Positions 57,021 through 64,000 of a DNA stretch of 64,000 nucleotides are shown here, piece after piece (the first letter of the stretch is position 1; each line of letters starts with the position of its first letter). The position numbers and the translations under genes are program-made. The notes beneath the pieces are model-generated. The model searched no databases. It was not told the origin of the DNA and saw only the letters and a list, made by a program, of their open reading frames with translations. The DNA comes from Pseudalgibacter alginicilyticus (lineage in GTDB: Bacteria > Bacteroidota > Bacteroidia > Flavobacteriales > Flavobacteriaceae), in contig NZ_CP012898.1 of assembly GCF_001310225.1 (NCBI RefSeq), positions 248,001-312,000 on the forward strand, read 5' to 3'.

Positions 57021-57323
57021 TTTATTTTTCTACATTATAGTGCCATTTGCACAAATTACTTAATTCAAAATCTATTTAGAATCGTCGCTTGCTAAAATAG
57101 TACAATTCTAACAATATCAGTAGGTTCTGCTTTACAATTTTGTATTCTACTTGATTTACAAGTATTGACATTGATTAAGTTATTGAATGTAGGTAAAACC
57201 TTTTTAATTAAAACCAATGGTTTTGTGTGTGATTTCGTTGCGTGTTTTAGCAAATAAAAAACGAATAGAATATTCCTGCGGAATATTCGTAAGTAGGCTA
57301 AAACCAGCAATTAATTTTATACG

Positions 57324-57629
57324 TCTTAAGTTTGATTTCTATTAAATTAGGTGTAAATCAGAAAGAACAAAAGAGAGAATTGCGTATAGTAAACAAAGGA
57401 AAGAGCAAGAAAGTGGCATTAATAGCTGTAGCTAATAAGCTGATTAAACAATGCTTTGCAATTGCGAAATCAGGCAGAGCGTATGATGAAACTTACGTTT
57501 CTGTATTGCTTAAGTAATTAAAAAAAATAGAATAAAAAAGCAAACAAAATCAACTACTTGAATTTGTAAGCCCAATATAATAGTGTCTAATATTTTGAAG
57601 AAATGACTTGTTTTTTACCTCAGTTCTTT
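57324..57629 (+). mobile_element. decayed IS110-family element inserted in repeat A
   Basis: It holds the C-terminus of an IS110-type transposase and a distinctive non-coding right end (from about 57544 to 57629, starting AAAATCAACTACTTGAATTT). The same right end and the same 40-bp left end recur in repeat B. Insertion is in the outer right arm of the palindrome just after TATACG, identical in both copies. Confidence 0.7.
57332..57517 (+). pseudogene. IS110-family transposase, C-terminal fragment
   Basis: The open stretch of 61 codons ends at TAA. Residues NKGKSKKVALIAVANKLIKQ and CFAIAKSGRAYDETY match the end of IS110/IS116/IS902-type transposases (K.G...K.ALIAVANKLLKQ.FAIAKSG..Y). The DEDD catalytic domain and the rest of the C-terminal serine domain are missing. 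Confidence 0.78.
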
Positions 57630-57644
57630 GTTGGCAACAGTATT

Positions 57645-58316
57645 TTATTCAGTTAGAAATTTTGTCGTATAATTTATTACAAAATCAGAAATAAATGATT
57701 TTATAAATTCATCATCGTTATATTCATCGTTTTCTTTTAATTCCGCATATAGTTTTTTGTATTCTTCAGTTTTTTCAAACTTTTCGAACTGACGTTTTTT
57801 GAATTTTACAAACTCCTTATTTTTATATTTTCGAGCTTCATTAAAGTTTCCTTTATCAATTTCGAGAAGCCAATATTTGCTAAAAGTCGATGCGTAACCC
57901 ATATGAACATATTCGACCATTTTTCCGTGTGGTATTATCAGAATTCCAGTATACCAATCTATTTTAGCTTTCTCTTTATTTGGAAAAACTTGTTTAAATG
58001 CAGAAATCCATTTTGTTTCATAATCATCATCTGAATCTTTATCCGAAACTTCAATTTTAATATCAGTCAAGAATAATTGCTCATCAATAATTTCAAAGAA
58101 TGCAATATATCCACGCCACAAAGCAGTAGACATCATTCCGCCTTGAGGTCGTTTGTCAGGGTGTTTTTCGAAATATGGTTCGAGTGGATTTGAATTTAGA
58201 TTGTATTCAGTTCCTTTGAATGTAATTTTATCAGGATATTGAGCTGTAACAATGTTTTCAGCTTTTAATATTCCAATTGTACAAGTGATTAATATTAGTA
58301 AGAGTGTTTTTTTCAT
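57645..58316 (-). CDS. exported protein of unknown function (cassette 1)
   Basis: This 223-residue protein has a signal peptide (MKKTLLLILITCTIGILKAE). The mature part begins with a beta-rich region (KITFKGTEYNLNSNPLEPYF, PQGGMMSTALWRGYIAFFEI) and ends in a charged helical tail. No family was recognised. Its stop codon lies 5 bases after the end of repeat A. Its start codon lies 1 base from the left end of an IS3 element, so its native upstream region, presumably adjoining repeat B, is now 1.3 kb away. The coding part looks complete. Confidence 0.8.
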   Translation of the reverse strand: MKKTLLLILITCTIGILKAENIVTAQYPDKITFKGTEYNLNSNPLEPYFEKHPDKRPQGGMMSTALWRGYIAFFEIIDEQLFLTDIKIEVSDKDSDDDYETKWISAFKQVFPNKEKAKIDWYTGILIIPHGKMVEYVHMGYASTFSKYWLLEIDKGNFNEARKYKNKEFVKFKKRQFEKFEKTEEYKKLYAELKENDEYNDDEFIKSFISDFVINYTTKFLTE

Positions 58317-58356
58317 ATGTCTCGTCCTGAAATATGGCTACAGGTTAAAATTGTTT

Positions 58357-59238
58357 TTAAGCTGATAATTTATATACCATATTCGGTGTTTTGAAGTCTA
58401 AAGATAAATGTAATCTTATTTGGTTGTATAAATTAATTGCATTTTTTGTAGCTCTTTTCGCGTGATCCACGTTATCAAAGGTCTGGTCGAGATAAAATTC
58501 ATCTTTTAATATGCCGTTTACACGCTCTGCCATGGCATTTTCGTAACAATGGTTTTCTTCCGTCATACTAATATCTATCTTATTTCTTTTAAGAACTTGT
58601 GTGTATACATTACTGCAATACTGTATGCCTCTGTCTGAATGATGTATTAAATCTTTAGTGCTCTTTGTTTGGTACAGAGCTTTGTTTAGAGCTCTAACAC
58701 ATCCTTTTAGTTCCAGGCTATCACTTAGATCATAACCGACAATTTTCCTAGAATACATATCTGTTATTAGTGCTAAGTAACAAAATCCTTTAATGGTTCT
58801 TATGTAGGTAATATCGCTTACCCACACCTGATTTGGCCTTGTAATTTTTCTATCTTTTATCAGGTTATTGTATTTATAAAAGCGATGATAAGAGTTTGTA
58901 GTTCTGGCACTGGTTTTCTTTCTTAGTGTGAGCATATTATACTTTCTAAGTACGCTAAATAAAGAGTCTCTGCCGACTTTAATATTGGCTTTGTAAAACT
59001 CATTGTCTAACGATTTAATGAGTTTTCTCACACCTTCTCTAGGAAGGGATTTACGTTTTCTACTGACTATTTTTATAATTTGTTGTTCCTGTATTAACCG
59101 CTTATCAGCTCTAGATTTGTATTTATAATACGCATCACGTTTAAGACCAAAACAACGCGTTATAGTTGTTAAAGATGTAAATCCCTTAGATTTCTCTTTA
59201 GCTTTAATTAAGGCTTTATACTTAGCTTTTTTTTTAGT
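58357..59238 (-). CDS. IS3-family transposase, orfB frame (DDE catalytic part)
   Basis: The frame is open over about 293 codons. It has no obvious own start at its upstream edge and would be read by -1 frameshifting from orfA at a run of nine A followed by G (minus strand, 59235-59226); a GTG at 59031 is internal. It holds an HTH_21-like region and the rve core with the DDE triad: VWVSDITYIRT, IHHSDRGIQY and ENAMAERVNGILKDEF. All catalytic residues are intact. Because orfA is broken, the fused transposase probably cannot be made. Confidence 0.87.
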   Translation of the reverse strand, partial: TKKKAKYKALIKAKEKSKGFTSLTTITRCFGLKRDAYYKYKSRADKRLIQEQQIIKIVSRKRKSLPREGVRKLIKSLDNEFYKANIKVGRDSLFSVLRKYNMLTLRKKTSARTTNSYHRFYKYNNLIKDRKITRPNQVWVSDITYIRTIKGFCYLALITDMYSRKIVGYDLSDSLELKGCVRALNKALYQTKSTKDLIHHSDRGIQYCSNVYTQVLKRNKIDISMTEENHCYENAMAERVNGILKDEFYLDQTFDNVDHAKRATKNAINLYNQIRLHLSLDFKTPNMVYKLSA

Positions 59239-59607
59239 TCAGCTACAGATTTATAGCCTAAGTCTTCGGCAGCTACCTCAAGGTATGAATCTAAAACCAA
59301 AGTATCTAAATCCTTTTTAATCAGTAGTTTTTTAAGCTGTTCAATCTCTTTTTGAAGTGCTTTAATTCTAGATATTTAGCTTCGCTGAACCACTTCGTTA
59401 GGTTTCGTCTTTTGTTTCCACTTTTACTCTGGTGTTCATTAGATCTTTACGATTGTACTTTTTAATCCACTCGTTGACCGTTGTTGGAGCAATGGAGTAG
59501 AGTTTACAAAGTTCGCTCTTTGTGTGTTTACCGGTTGTAAGTTCGGCTAAAATTTTCAGTTTGAAAGGTTCTGAATACCGTCTGATTACTTTGTCATTTT
59601 TGTACAT
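59208..59607 (-). pseudogene. IS3-family orfA, disrupted by a 28-bp insertion
   Basis: The first 69 codons (MYKNDKVIRRYSEPFKLKIL...) encode the HTH_8-type DNA-binding domain and stop at a TAA at 59398. Downstream, in another frame, RIKALQKEIEQLKKLLIKKD continues the leucine-zipper part and ends KKLSIKP at 59208. Removing 28 bases (59376-59403) restores a single frame reading ...TKDE-ISRIKALQ..., which is the expected family sequence. The insertion shifts the frame and adds stop codons. Confidence 0.8.
59376..59403. repeat. 28-bp insertion inside IS3 orfA
   Basis: The extra bases begin TTAGCTTCGCTGAACC and end ACTTCGTTAGGT. They contain CGAAG twice (minus strand: CGAAGTGGTTCAGCGAAG). The exact boundaries are ambiguous by a few bases. 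Confidence 0.6.
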
Positions 59608-59650
59608 AATGTTTAAAATTATGTAGCCTATATTCAGGACGGGTCAAAAT

Positions 59651-59930
59651 GGTTTGCAACGTGTTTGTATATGGTTTGTTGCGTGGTTAAGCACGTAATT
59701 TAGCAAATAAAAACCGAATAGAAAATACGCGAGTATTTTCGTAAGTAGGCTAGAACCAGCAATAAATTATATACGGCTTAAGTTTGAAATCTATTAAATT
59801 AGATATAAATCAGAAAGCATAAAAAAAAGCTTACAAAATCAACTACTTGAATTTGTAAGCCCAATATAATAGTGTCTAATATTTTTGAAGAAATGACTTG
59901 TTTTTTACCTCAGTTCTTTGTTGTATGGCG
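59651..59930. repeat. palindromic cassette repeat B, interrupted by a short IS110-type derivative
   Basis: Left arm TTTGCAACGTGTTTGTATATGG. Inner hairpin GAAAATAC (59721-59728), loop GCGA, GTATTTTC (59733-59740). Right arm CAGCAATAAATTATATACG. The distal end, GTTGTATGGCG (59920-59930), follows a 144-bp foreign segment. Confidence 0.78.
59776..59919. mobile_element. IS110-type deletion derivative in repeat B
   Basis: It shares its left 40 bases (CTTAAGTTTGAAATCTATTA...) and right 95 bases (AAAATCAACTACTTGAATTT ... CAGTTCTTT) with the element in repeat A but lacks all coding sequence. It is inserted at the same point of the palindrome. Confidence 0.7.
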
Positions 59931-59933
59931 TTT

Positions 59934-60968
59934 TTATCCTAATTTTTCGTTTAAAGTTTCTATAAATGAGTTGTTGATGTTTTTAGCTAATTTAAATTCT
60001 TTAATTATTTGATTGGAAACTTCTAAAAATTTTAATCTTGCTTTTTTCAGGTGTGCATTATTTTTAGGTAGTCCCGAAACAGAATTTCTCAAGAATTTCA
60101 TTGATTCAATAGATTCTCGCATATTCGGTTTGAGATTGATTAGTGAATCAAGTAAATCTTGAAGAGTTGCGTAATCTTGTTCGATGTGATATACAATTAT
60201 TGATACTTTTTCTTGAGCACTAAAAACTTTCGCAAAGTAATAGGCGAATTCTTCGATTTCGGCATTCAATTTATAAGTAATAGAATTCATCGATTCTGAA
60301 TAAACCTTAACACTCTTTTTAACTCTCTTGTCAAATTCAGATAAACCTTGGTCTACAAATTTGTCTATTTTAATTCTCTGATTTTTTGTTTCTTCTCCAA
60401 GTTTTGAAATTAAATCTGAAATTGTATTTAAGCTTTTTATACATTCACTGAATAAACCTGCATCTTCAACAATTTGGTCTATTTCAGATTGGCTCAATTC
60501 TCCGTTCTGAACTTGTAATTCGAAATCTGTTTGTTTGTTGCCAGATATGATTTTATTTAATTCATCAATAGAGTTTTCATTTAAGTTCTTTGATTTTGGT
60601 ATTAGAATTTTCCATTGAGTAGGTGTTTTTTTAAATGTTTCTTCATTTGCAATTTCCCAAGTTGTTTTATCTGTTTCAGGAAGATGAGCAATAATAATTA
60701 CGGGAAGATTTGAATTCAGCCAATAGTTGTAATGAATTTTAGTAACATAAAGTGTCAATGAGTTTTTAGAGTCGTGGAAATTCCCTTTACCAGTTTTTAT
60801 TTGTGCAGAAATAAATTTTCCAGTCGGTTCTCCATTTAGTTTTTGTTCGATTAAGGCATCTATTCCTACGTCTACAATTGGTTGTTCTCTGAAAATCCAA
60901 TCTAATTCTTTAGTAATTAAAAGGGCAGTAGCATAAACTCCAATTCTTTCAGTATTAATATCTCTCAT
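59934..60968 (-). CDS. DUF4365-domain protein, predicted PD-(D/E)XK nuclease-like (cassette 2)
   Basis: Residues about 1-140 of this 344-residue protein match DUF4365, a domain with a restriction-endonuclease-like fold. Conserved acidic and lysine positions are E7, D37 and E41 (VDVGIDALIE), and Q56-x-K58 (ISAQIKTG). The remaining 200 residues are helical and charged with coiled-coil character, and no second domain was recognised. DUF4365 proteins often occur with other defence genes, so an anti-phage or DNA-processing role is inferred and not shown. The gene fills the whole cassette: the stop is 3 bases after repeat B and the start is 15 bases before repeat C. Confidence 0.82.
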   Translation of the reverse strand: MRDINTERIGVYATALLITKELDWIFREQPIVDVGIDALIEQKLNGEPTGKFISAQIKTGKGNFHDSKNSLTLYVTKIHYNYWLNSNLPVIIIAHLPETDKTTWEIANEETFKKTPTQWKILIPKSKNLNENSIDELNKIISGNKQTDFELQVQNGELSQSEIDQIVEDAGLFSECIKSLNTISDLISKLGEETKNQRIKIDKFVDQGLSEFDKRVKKSVKVYSESMNSITYKLNAEIEEFAYYFAKVFSAQEKVSIIVYHIEQDYATLQDLLDSLINLKPNMRESIESMKFLRNSVSGLPKNNAHLKKARLKFLEVSNQIIKEFKLAKNINNSFIETLNEKLG

Positions 60969-60982
60969 TCCTTGTTTTAAAT

Positions 60983-61122
60983 GACATACAACGGCCTCGT
61001 ATAACCGTCAGTTACGGGTTAATATGCGTTAATTTTCGGTTTAGCACAGACGTTAGCAATTCCGAGTGGATTCGGACGTAGTCGAATCCGCCGTAATTGC
61101 GGTTATACATTGTTGTACTGCG
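60983..61122. repeat. palindromic cassette repeat C
   Basis: Left end GACATACAACG, arm GTATAACCG.CAGTTACGG. Right arm CCGTAATTGCGGTTATAC and end GTTGTACTGC. The interior (GTGGATTCGGACGTAGTCGAATCCGC at 61066-61091) forms its own hairpin, GGATTCG/CGAATCC. It belongs to a different sequence subtype from A, B, D, E and F but has the same architecture. Confidence 0.82.
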
Positions 61123-61678
61123 TTTTTTTATTCCATCGTACTGTTATTTTGTCGAACCACAAATCTCTTTCATTGACAACAAAATCGAACTCTTTTCCAT
61201 CGTCAGTTATTATTCTAATTCCGTTGTCAATTAGTTTTGCGGTTTTCCTCTTAACAATTTCTTTTATTGTCGAATATTCGATATCCGTTTGTCCTTTTTG
61301 AATATTTATTTTATGCGATTTGAAAATCACTTTTTTATTTGTCAAGAAAATTTTTCCGCCAACGCCTTCAATTCCGCGAAATAAGTTTGCGGGTCCTTCA
61401 ATCTCGATTTCTTCATTTAATTCAAGTTCTGGTTTAATTTGCATTCCCATTTTTTTCGAGAACTTTCCAGCAAATTTTTCATTCACGTAAGGAAATCCAA
61501 TTCCGAAAAAAATTCCGAAGAACACTCCTTGAAAAATCAAGCTGTTAATTGAATAAAGTTTTTCGTCAGAGAAATAATCAAAAGTCCAGAGTAAAAAAGT
61601 GTAAAGAATTGCAGTTCCGATTGCAAATATTATTCGGTACTTCCAACTAATTTTAATCATCTTATTTCCTATTTCCAT
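61103..61678 (-). CDS. membrane protein with GRAM-like domain (cassette 3)
   Basis: This 191-residue protein has two hydrophobic segments (about 13-32, IIFAIGTAILYTFLLWTFDY, and about 43-62). A cytoplasmic GRAM/bacterial-PH-like beta domain covers residues about 85-175 (GVGGKIFLTNKKVIFKSHKI, STIKEIVKRK, GIRIITDDGKEFDFVV). An alternative start is M7. The last six codons (TQYNNV) and the stop lie inside the right arm of repeat C, so the repeat encodes part of the protein. The function is unknown; GRAM-like domains often bind lipids. Confidence 0.82.
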   Translation of the reverse strand: MEIGNKMIKISWKYRIIFAIGTAILYTFLLWTFDYFSDEKLYSINSLIFQGVFFGIFFGIGFPYVNEKFAGKFSKKMGMQIKPELELNEEIEIEGPANLFRGIEGVGGKIFLTNKKVIFKSHKINIQKGQTDIEYSTIKEIVKRKTAKLIDNGIRIITDDGKEFDFVVNERDLWFDKITVRWNKKTQYNNV

Positions 61679-61694
61679 AATGTTTGTCTTAAAT

Positions 61695-61835
61695 GCAGTA
61701 CAACGTTTGGTGTATGGTTAGTTGCGTGTTTAAGCAACTAATTTAGTAAACAAAAACGAACGCGAGAAAATTCCGAAGGAATTTTCCAAGTAAGCACTCG
61801 CCAAAGCAATTAATTATACACGGTGTTACCCGACG
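61695..61835. repeat. palindromic cassette repeat D
   Basis: Left end GCAGTACAACG, arm TTTGGTGTATGGTTAGTTGC. Inner hairpin GAAAATTCC (61766-61774), loop GAA, GGAATTTTC (61778-61786). Right arm GCAATTAATTATACACGGT, end GTTACCCGACG. Confidence 0.88.
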
Positions 61836-61838
61836 TTT

Positions 61839-62207
61839 TTATTCTTTTTCTAATTTAACTATTAAGTCATCAATTGAATGCCCTTGATTTAATTCCAATT
61901 CCACAGTTTTAAATCCAACTTTTCTTATTTTGATTTTTACTGGATTATCGGGACAAAATCCATAACTGTCAGAATTCATAAAAAAAATGCCTGTCGAATC
62001 TGTTGCAAAAACACAATTTGTTTCAACATTTTGAGCTGTTGCTCTTACTAATTCTGTACATCTTATGTTCGTAAATTCAAGGAATGCTTTTTCAATCGGT
62101 TCTTTTGTGTTAGAGTCGATAACCTTTCCGTTAACAATTACCCAACAATCACAAGAAATTAGCACGAAAGAAATCAACATTCCAAAAATTAGCCTTTTAT
62201 ATTTCAT
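61839..62207 (-). CDS. small lipoprotein with carboxypeptidase-regulatory-like fold (cassette 4)
   Basis: This 122-residue protein has the lipobox LISFVLISCDC (lipid-modified cysteine 19). The mature part resembles a CarboxypepD_reg-like beta-sandwich (VNGKVIDSNTKEPIEKAFLE, TDSTGIFFMNSD, VKIKIRKVGFKTVELEL). It has several cysteines, unusual for these domains. It starts 4 bases after the stop of the membrane protein gene in the same cassette, so the two are co-translated. The stop lies 3 bases after repeat D. Confidence 0.83.
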   Translation of the reverse strand: MKYKRLIFGMLISFVLISCDCWVIVNGKVIDSNTKEPIEKAFLEFTNIRCTELVRATAQNVETNCVFATDSTGIFFMNSDSYGFCPDNPVKIKIRKVGFKTVELELNQGHSIDDLIVKLEKE

Positions 62208-62211
62208 TCGG

Positions 62212-62523
62212 TCAGTATGTTTTAGTCATTGCAATTGTCATCATTATTCCGATATACAAAAATGGAATTGCACTTAAAAAAATCCAAATCAGATTTTTTT
62301 TTAATTCAGATTTATGTTTAGAAATCAAAAGTATTGTGTTTATCAACGACCAGAAAATTCCACCATAAAACAAAATTAGGAATAGCCAATTTCCATAATT
62401 GTAAATCCAACTCCCTCTAAAAGGTTCAACTGCATATTTGATAAAAAGTCCAGTTAGGCAAATTCCAATAATTAGAATTCCACTTTTTTTAGTCCAATTT
62501 ATATTTCGAAGTGTTATGTTCAA
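62212..62523 (-). CDS. small three-helix membrane protein (cassette 4)
   Basis: The open frame begins inside repeat E (a TTG at 62580), which would make repeat sequence coding. The first usable codon outside the repeat is a TTG at 62523, 14 bases after the repeat edge, giving 103 residues. This matches the 8-17 base gap seen in the neighbouring cassettes; no in-frame ATG exists. Three hydrophobic helices are visible (SGILIIGICLTGLFIKYAV, WLFLILFYGGIFWSLINTI, LIWIFLSAIPFLYIGIMMTI). No family was recognised. The lipoprotein gene follows after 4 bases. Confidence 0.65.
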   Translation of the reverse strand: MNITLRNINWTKKSGILIIGICLTGLFIKYAVEPFRGSWIYNYGNWLFLILFYGGIFWSLINTILLISKHKSELKKNLIWIFLSAIPFLYIGIMMTIAMTKTY

Positions 62524-62536
62524 TGTTTGGTCAAAT

Positions 62537-62674
62537 GTTGGGTAACGTGTTTGTGTATGGTTAGTTGCGTGGTTAAGCAATTAATTTAGCAAATACAAAC
62601 CGAATAGAAAATCCGCGAGGATTTTCGTAAGTAGGCGAGTACTAGCAATGAATTATACACGGTGTTACCCACAG
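62537..62674. repeat. palindromic cassette repeat E
   Basis: Left end GTTGGGTAACG, arm TGTTTGTGTATGGTTAGTTGC. Inner hairpin GAAAATCC (62607-62614), loop GCGA, GGATTTTC (62619-62626). Right arm GCAATGAATTATACACGGT, end GTTACCCACAG. Confidence 0.9.
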
Positions 62675-62678
62675 TTTT

Positions 62679-63590
62679 TTATTTCAACATCCAATTTATT
62701 AAATCTTTTTCATTTACTATCGCCCAAGAATGTGGATGCCTTTCTCCATTTGCTCGATAACCTCGATTTTCGGTGTTTATTAATTCAACATTGTTTTCTC
62801 CAAATTCGATTTTTAATTTGTCTGATAATTTTTGAATGTAAAAAGCATTTAAATCTTCATATTCATTTTTTGCGTATTCTTTCCACCATTTTAAATCAGG
62901 TTCTGTATAAAACCTAATTTTTAATTTTTCCAATCCTTTTAGATTGTCAATATTTTCCGTTTTAAATGTATAAGGCGAATTCTGTTCGTAAGTATTAATT
63001 CCATTTGATGGATTTCCAAATTCTTTATCAAACATATTCTTAATCCAAGTAGATTCTTGGATAGATGATTCTGAAAAGTTAAGTTTTAAATTCTTTTCGG
63101 CAGTTCCATAAAGTCCAAGAAGGTCAATAGGTGAATCCACTATAAAAACTCCTTTCGGTTGAATTTGACTTTCATTCTTTACAAGATAATCACTAATTAA
63201 TAGACTTACATTTCCACCACTTGAGAATCCGCCTATAAAGATGTTCTCTTCGGATAAGTTTTTTTCCTTAACTATTCTTGTTAATTGTTCCGTTAATTCT
63301 TGTTTTTCTTTTTGGCTTAAAAATAATTTTTGGTTTAAGTTCATTGCTAAAACTGAAAAGTCATTTTTTACACTTATTTCCGTAATTTTAAATTCAGACA
63401 ATGTGTTCTCCGCATCACAAGGAAAACAAGGGAATAAAATCAATAATCCTCTTTGATTTTCGGCTTTTATCAATTCAAATTCGGCTGTCTTAATAATTTC
63501 AGGTTTTGGTCTTTCAGTCCGATTTATTTTCTCGGATTTTCCTTTGCAAGAAGTTATAATTAAAAGTAAAATTATGATGTATTTCGTCAT
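62679..63590 (-). CDS. lipoprotein alpha/beta hydrolase (cassette 5)
   Basis: This 303-residue protein has a lipobox (IIILLLIITSCKG, cysteine 15). The fold looks like an alpha/beta hydrolase or esterase, with the nucleophile elbow IFIGGFSSGGNVSLL (GxSxG), an acid candidate in FYTEPDLKWW and a histidine near the C-terminus (GERHPHSWAIV). The substrate is unknown. The start lies 8 bases inside the edge of repeat F and the stop 4 bases beyond repeat E, so the gene fills the cassette. Confidence 0.82.
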   Translation of the reverse strand: MTKYIIILLLIITSCKGKSEKINRTERPKPEIIKTAEFELIKAENQRGLLILFPCFPCDAENTLSEFKITEISVKNDFSVLAMNLNQKLFLSQKEKQELTEQLTRIVKEKNLSEENIFIGGFSSGGNVSLLISDYLVKNESQIQPKGVFIVDSPIDLLGLYGTAEKNLKLNFSESSIQESTWIKNMFDKEFGNPSNGINTYEQNSPYTFKTENIDNLKGLEKLKIRFYTEPDLKWWKEYAKNEYEDLNAFYIQKLSDKLKIEFGENNVELINTENRGYRANGERHPHSWAIVNEKDLINWMLK

Positions 63591-63598
63591 CTCTTAAA

Positions 63599-63741
63599 TT
63601 GTGGGTAACGTGTTTGTGTATGGTTAGTTGCGTGGTTAGGCAACTAAGTTAACAAACATTTACGAACCCGTGAAAATTCCGCAGGAATTTTCGCAAGTAG
63701 GGAAGAACCTAGCAATTAATTATACACGTTGTTACCTATAG
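63599..63741. repeat. palindromic cassette repeat F
   Basis: Left end TTGTGGGTAACG, arm TGTTTGTGTATGGTTAGTTGC. Inner hairpin GAAAATTCC (63672-63680), loop GCA, GGAATTTTC (63684-63692). Right arm GCAATTAATTATACACG, end GTTACCTATAG. The 258 bases from here to the window end show no gene; they may be the downstream part of a sixth cassette. Confidence 0.9.
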
Positions 63742-64000
63742 TTTTTTTTTATTTAGGCAGATTTCAAGTGTTGAAATTTTCCTTTAAATTCATTTTGGAA
63801 CTTTAATTCTCGCAAGAGTTTTAGCGTATTACTCCGTTTTACGAATCCAGATTAGTTTAGATTAGTTTTCCTGCGTGTAGTTCAACCGTAACGATAAACG
63901 TTAGCTTTTCAAACTTGGTTTCCTTTATCAATCTATTTAATCTAGATTTATCTTAGTTGTTTTAATTCTCAAAATAGAGAAGAGTTATTTAATTTGGATT

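Follow-up and report, generated by a model that had tools for sequence, protein, structure and literature searches.

The 64,000-nucleotide stretch of the Pseudalgibacter alginicilyticus chromosome studied here (the window; C1:248,001-312,000, C1 being the single contig of the 3.99 Mb genome) holds the downstream part of an array of gene cassettes that spans approximately C1:305.2 kb to 331.4 kb. The array very probably belongs to a chromosomal integron-type gene-capture system, the most likely catalyst of which is the tyrosine recombinase encoded next to the array (hereafter the integrase), an enzyme of a lineage separate from canonical IntI. In such a system, a cassette would consist of one gene and one attC-like hairpin site at its 3' end. 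Upon excision the two ends of the cassette would meet and its outer 13-14 bases would pair again. With the folded bottom strand as the putative substrate, the integrase would join the cassette at a GTT triplet into attI, located ~100 bp beyond the 3' end of the integrase gene, or into another attC. As the outer right end of a site belongs to the neighboring cassette after insertion, ends would match across genes and not across palindromes.

The repeat that separates the genes is read on the minus strand, i.e., in gene direction. It opens right after the stop codon with seven bases that vary, followed by AACA, and at its 3' edge CGTT is followed by another seven such bases. In the genome stretches that were fetched, 45 copies are present, 18 of which are located in the window's array and the rest near 3.85, 1.63, and 1.14 Mb and as single copies. 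A preliminary description of this DNA had claimed that the ends of four cassettes match across the gene in minus-strand reading, and this is the case: the match amounts to 10/10 bases in cassettes 3 (GTTGTACTGC) and 5 (GTTACCCACA), 9/10 in cassette 4 (GTTACCCAAC versus GTTACCCGAC) and 8/8 in cassette 2 (GTTGTATG), the far end of which is read past an inserted element from window position 59,920. Among the 45 copies, 24 neighboring pairs have readable ends, and across these genes a mean of 5.71 of the 7 variable bases match (6 or 7 in 18 cassettes), a value reached by none of 10,000 shuffles. Within one palindrome the mean is 2.93/7 (30 repeats; reached by 969 of 10,000 shuffles), and over all pairs it is 2.56/7. 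Six of the 24 cassettes remain below 6; the five lowest (0, 1, 3, 3, and 4) all have gaps above 1.5 kb, and the sixth (5) has a gap of 786 bp.

The same result was obtained from a comparison of many copies with shuffled pairs, which the preliminary description had proposed. In 169 cassettes from 20 sequences of 17 genomes (both ends located in 228 copies; cassette length 100-1,500 bp; ends placed with help of the inner-stem match), 6.44/7 bases match across the gene, with 6 or 7 in 154/169, as opposed to 2.72/7 within the palindrome, with 6 or 7 in 9/228, and 3.19/7 in within-locus shuffles, the highest of 1,000 reaching 3.61. When the ends are placed without the inner-stem match, using 132 repeats whose start and end are each unambiguous, the means are 5.19 across and 2.58 within (73 cassettes). 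The two ends of one palindrome often disagree in both data sets, as had been noted before. The tags are diverse (96 different 7-mers among 169 ends), and the across-gene match extends to base 14 except for base 11, where the right end carries A in 167/169 and the left end C in 154/169. This top-strand mismatch of A opposite C therefore corresponds to a T.G pair on the bottom strand. Matching of cassette ends across the gene was described early for integrons.

The window's array starts with GTTGTAGCCAAT, a sequence that matches the left end of the first attC and is located 128 bp beyond the point where the integrase match ends. An attI-like site (GTT plus 6-7 of the 7 bases) is found 51-177 bp past the integrase match in 14/21 loci, with 7/7 bases in 11 of them and 6/7 in three, and the distance is exactly 102 bp in five. 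In one genus, attI is located at +102 again in 9/11 platforms; of the other two, L180 lacks it and L188 has an integrase match that stops short. On its left side, attI of this genus has ATATAAC followed by two bases and GTT. The covariance model for these sites (see below) detects no palindromic site at attI of the P. alginicilyticus genome. A single attI beside the integrase as the point of cassette entry, which is a hallmark of integrons, is thus seen in these 14 loci and nine platforms and in the divergence of platforms after GTT described further below. Palindromes of ~18-20 bp with differing sequences and near-perfect symmetry are located just upstream of attI in a sub-clade of four loci (L066, L067, L072, and L073) and are candidates for a terminator or a binding site.

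Furthermore, in a search of 20 integrase loci with a profile-free detector, 173 linked cassettes were found on the downstream side (283.6 kb; at least one in 17/20 loci) and none upstream (13.7 kb), on the other strand, or in the 20 sequences read backwards; these loci are top or complete-genome matches and not a random sample. Linked cassettes are also present in 12 of 80 named loci (39 cassettes; downstream sequence is short in many of the 80), including Algoriphagus, Arundinibacter, and Aquiflexum outside the Flavobacteriaceae.

The integrase is a tyrosine recombinase of 377 amino acids (PF00589, 141.5 bits). Its best curated models are recomb_XerA_Arch, the best NCBIfam hit, and integrase_gron, both scoring below cut-off. 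The scores for the Xer models are 201 of the required 220 bits (XerA_Arch), 173 of 329.6 (XerD), and 164.3 of 335.15 (XerC), and the curated IntI model TIGR02249 yields 183.5 bits versus a cut-off of 265, the match being split into two stretches by a gap. IntI4 is longer by 43 residues between the two aligned blocks, and the integrase is ~40 residues shorter than IntI between the active-site blocks. The segment from R to HxLRH comprises 58 residues in all 12 measurable enzymes among the 20 linked to arrays and 100 in both measurable canonical IntI, and the IntI-specific insertion (I2 helix) was not seen in the alignment of all 20 array-linked enzymes. In a quick tree of 58 rows, which covers part of the 80 loci (without L059; L069 and L070 are labeled array-less despite an attI match), eight canonical IntI form a clade with a support of 100, and 29 array-linked rows are placed outside; the integrase does not fall within the IntI clade. 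An AlphaFold2 model of an Algibacter relative (predicted local distance difference test 84.6, predicted template modeling score 0.58) matches IntI4 on DNA (E 2.2e-15) about as well as XerA (E 2.4e-15). The model has an extra N-terminal domain of ~70 residues with a beta-beta-alpha-beta-beta-alpha arrangement. This domain is present in long integrases (residues 1-72 in L074) and absent from short relatives, e.g., those of genomes G184 and G192, and in the P. alginicilyticus integrase it receives no Pfam name at E 0.01. Judged by these comparisons of sequence, the lineage of the integrase is separate from canonical IntI.

Several observations weigh against a system run by the adjacent integrase. 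An attI near the integrase was not found in 7/21 loci; among the platforms, L180 has none. A permissive test also pointed to a putative palindrome arm on the upstream side of attI in 3/14 loci (L063, L064, and the P. alginicilyticus genome, where the covariance model detects no site). Linked cassettes are absent from several long relatives despite 10 kb of downstream sequence (e.g., L075, L078, L081, and L086), and the array-linked enzymes do not form one clade in the tree (9 changes). Of the eight pairs of like cassettes inspected, one (L054/L060, 84% identical) differs in both tags and attC. Finally, the further arrays of the genome (C1:3,845-3,869, 1,624-1,633, and 1,138-1,143 kb; L015-L018) have no PF00589 match within ~35 kb. 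These distant arrays also speak for a scenario in which the cassettes, with true attC sites, are moved in trans by another enzyme, e.g., a canonical IntI or XerC/XerD, while the adjacent recombinase would have no part in it. The same applies to genomes of another class in which like sites are present and, in some cases, a canonical IntI is encoded at a different place (G184). We consider a bystander role improbable: a canonical IntI was rejected for P. alginicilyticus, where none scores over the cut-off, the distance between the attI-like junction and this integrase hardly varies across many genera, and none of the seven other recombinase loci of the genome has such a site within 1.5 kb. The adjacent integrase is the probable catalyst.

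Next, we focus on the point of exchange, which is the GTT at the right edge of the palindrome. We inspected eight of 23 pairs of like cassettes with different neighbors. In five pairs (L054/L065, two in L063, and two in L064), the likeness sets in at the upstream (C)GTT, spans the entire downstream palindrome, and stops at its (C)GTT, with different sequences outside. Two pairs, both in L061, fit at the downstream end, which is the only informative one, as the two copies have like sites upstream. In genome G389, two platforms (L183 and L184) are 97% identical over 1,394 bp and diverge right after GTT. The two arrays, located on one chromosome, differ but share a block of 1,652 bp that is 99.9% identical and has CGTT at both borders, i.e., a case of recent sharing. 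Across nine platforms of one genus (36 pairs; L180 and L188 left out), the three positions of GTT are fully identical, and identity drops to 0.33-0.58 over the following six positions. The within-genus comparison was made in the genus of G130; the genera of P. alginicilyticus and G056 hold one genome each. These junctions suggest that the system has been active, and it may be so at present.

The preliminary description had proposed a reciprocal exchange in the middle of the palindrome, with each half traveling with its own gene. While such an exchange would explain that the outer ends match across genes and that a circle would regain its hairpin, the copies of a cassette are alike through the whole downstream palindrome and different upstream of the first GTT. 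Moreover, the inner stem fits better within the palindrome in 36/49 informative cases and across the gene in 10 (equal in 3), whereas the outer bases fit better across the gene in 36/49 and within the palindrome in 10 (equal in 3); the identical counts are due to chance, as the cross-table shows different cases. Edge junctions and inner-stem covariation rule out an exchange in mid-palindrome, to which we assign a negligible probability. Of the proposal that boundary palindromes are chimaeras, it holds true that parts of two units are joined, but the next unit contributes only the outermost bases beyond GTT and not a half-repeat. The unit itself is, as proposed, a gene with a palindrome. A shuffling of genes by homologous recombination between dispersed palindromic repeats (e.g., remnants of short transposable elements) would be in line with the insertion-element ends at the sites (8/45 copies on each side) and with the likeness of repeats within a genome, but it was rejected as highly implausible given the junctions at GTT, since homologous exchange would neither fix junctions at one triplet nor keep variable 7-base tags complementary between both ends of a unit, and the orientation is uniform.

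Edge exchange at GTT leaves a cassette whose rejoined ends are predicted to form a better-matched hairpin, as the preliminary description had anticipated for the circular form. For sites shorter than 240 bp, the mean predicted bottom-strand energy is -29.4 with rejoined ends, -23.5 as found, and -24.4 with a random end from the same sequence, and rejoining a cassette's own ends lowers the energy in 156/165 cases (equal in 3). The bottom strand is predicted to fold better than the top strand in 161/165 rejoined sites. Imperfect palindromes with paired outer and inner boxes and a bottom-strand bias, as required of integron sites, are thus present, and an action of the integrase on the folded bottom strand would be consistent with this bias. 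For published integrons, the bottom strand of attC is described to recombine approximately a thousand times better than the top strand (PMC8946536).

The longest reading frame runs forward in 158/169 cassettes and in reverse in one, and 10 have no frame of 50 amino acids. The frames have a median length of 193 amino acids, and the last base of the stop codon is located a median of 15 bases before the end of AAC. The cassettes, each a gene with its 3' attC, thus share one orientation, as is typical of integrons. Few of the scanned cassette proteins have a named domain; one cassette of the window's array (L014, 5202-7496) encodes an nSTAND3/Mrr-like protein matching the candidate phage-defense model PDC-S73 (E 6.7e-265).

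The system shares with canonical chromosomal integrons (IntI) an attI beside the integrase, one-gene cassettes in one orientation, hairpins edged by AAC and GTT, exchange at GTT, and bottom-strand folding. The long outer match was dropped as a peculiarity of this system because canonical IntI arrays in the phylum show it as well (at least 9 bases in 10/12 cassettes). In contrast to canonical integrons, the enzyme has no IntI-specific insertion, scores below the IntI cut-off, and is placed outside the IntI clade. The core sites read GTTR (167/169) and not the canonical GTTRRRY / RYYYAAC (GTTRRRY in 12/169), although canonical IntI arrays of the phylum also fail to show GTTRRRY (1/12 by eye). 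In addition, attI is located on the 3' side of the integrase, whereas it is described as most commonly upstream of intI (PMC2674596). The system works like an integron. It falls outside the IntI family in its present definition, since defining features of that family were tested for and not found.

An integrase transcribed toward attI, in the cassette direction, is also described for Treponema integrons (PMC3607928). The enzyme there, which we compare by its description in that source, is treated as intI, whereas the integrases studied here have no IntI-specific insertion. The catalytic core and its length (58 residues from R to HxLRH) resemble XerA, XerC, and XerD, in contrast to which the integrase is linked to a cassette array and attI and has the extra N-terminal domain. 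The arrays near 3.85, 1.63, and 1.14 Mb resemble attC clusters without an integrase, termed CALIN (PMC9024848), whereas the window's array has both integrase and attI.

A covariance model of the sites (alignment A3, 54 of 64 sampled sites) matched 131/149 Flavobacteriaceae genomes, each of which represents one genus; 116 of the 131 have five or more sites among the matches listed (at most 22 a genome). In a sample of the phylum, 89/247 genomes have a site match, and outside the Bacteroidota there is none in 10 genomes taken from loci in hand rather than at random. An integrase homolog at E 1e-40 is found in 99/149 family genomes, in some over the catalytic part only. A canonical IntI scores over the cut-off in 70/247 phylum genomes, none of them listed as Flavobacteriaceae. 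A wide distribution is countered by the 18/149 family genomes without a site (14/18 no larger than 2.2 Mb), by 15/131 with fewer than five matches, and by the many phylum genomes with 1-3 matches; among the 80 loci, two linked pairs on the reverse strand (L132 and L136) are both from non-Bacteroidota. All in all, we think it fairly probable that a second tyrosine recombinase lineage without the I2 helix performs an integron-type capture of folded attC, near-ubiquitously in Flavobacteriaceae and reaching other Bacteroidota. In G184 (L178) and G192 (L179), which belong to another class, a short relative is located at a distance of ~2 and 7 kb from such sites, in divergent orientation. These sites score up to 114 bits with the covariance model, and G184 has a canonical IntI on another contig. 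The findings in these two genomes suggest that cassettes, or the system, have been transferred from one class to another. Two contigs (L115 and L135) of a metagenome-assembled genome labeled Candidatus Undinarchaeales carry integrase relatives of 42 and 37% identity, for which contamination and transfer are candidate explanations.

Cassette boundaries at GTT (PMC3053210) and the across-gene matching are already known; the enzyme lineage and its near-ubiquity in Flavobacteriaceae are apparently new. No description of this system was found by title and abstract start among the papers listed from the literature searched, which comprised no preprints and few subscription journals. Reviews count Bacteroidota among the integron-bearing phyla. 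With IntegronFinder 2.0, complete elements are reported in Bacteroidetes/Chlorobi, for which Salinibacter is named, whereas all elements known before from Bacteroidetes had been integrase-only (PMC9024848), and a Tenacibaculum genome scanned with IntegronFinder is reported to have no integron (PMC10013915). Surveys of integrons are based on attC models and on IntI, including its extra domain, and here a single family has sites in most of its sampled genera. Gain of the I2 helix is regarded as the step by which integrases came to recombine attC as a single strand (PMC7790495), and a recombinase survey describes the insertion as not fully conserved in an integron-like subgroup (PMC8138268). If enzymes without I2 indeed do the same job, the I2-helix account needs changing, and these natural enzymes make it testable. 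A second lineage without I2 would mean either that integrons arose twice or that the I2 helix was not their founding innovation. A kind of integron seemingly common in one large bacterial family would then be run, apparently, by an enzyme without a part thought essential.

Table 1. Cassettes and sites of the array in the window, with attI and integrase beyond it (window positions unless marked C1).
Feature	Position	Strand	Details
Cassette 2	59920..60992	-	One gene, 59934-60968, DUF4365 protein; matched ends GTTGTATG / CATACAAC; downstream attC split off by inserted element at ~59777-59919
attC-like site, left end replaced by inserted element	59649..59776	-	Right end GTTGCAAACCAT
attC-like site between cassettes 3 and 2	60981..61123	-	Left end ACGCAGTACAAC, right end GTTGTATGTCAT
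Cassette 3	61112..61704	-	Gene 61103-61678, GRAM domain, stop codon 9 bases inside attC; ends GTTGTACTGC / GCAGTACAAC
attC-like site between cassettes 4 and 3	61693..61836	-	Left end ACGTCGGGTAAC, right end GTTGTACTGCAT
Cassette 4	61825..62546	-	Two short reading frames, 61839-62207 and one within 62212-62580; ends GTTACCCAAC / GTCGGGTAAC
attC-like site between cassettes 5 and 4	62535..62675	-	Left end ACTGTGGGTAAC, right end GTTACCCAACAT
Cassette 5	62664..63609	-	Gene 62679-63590; ends GTTACCCACA / TGTGGGTAAC
attC-like site upstream of cassette 5	63598..63742	-	Left end ACTATAGGTAAC, right end GTTACCCACAAT; array continues beyond window to C1:331.4 kb
attI	C1 ~332,026		Beyond window, past array
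Integrase	C1:332,151-333,284	-	Beyond window, after attI

Ends of insertion elements recur at attC-like sites, both in the window (57190-59805) and at other copies. A fixed left junction ending in CTTAAG adjoins the attC body in 8/45 copies, and a fixed right junction (CCTGAAT) is located just past the right end in 8/45 copies. Transposase frames with rve and HTH_Tnp_1 domains are found at window positions 58357-59607, and some element, of one or two kinds, seems to prefer attC sites.

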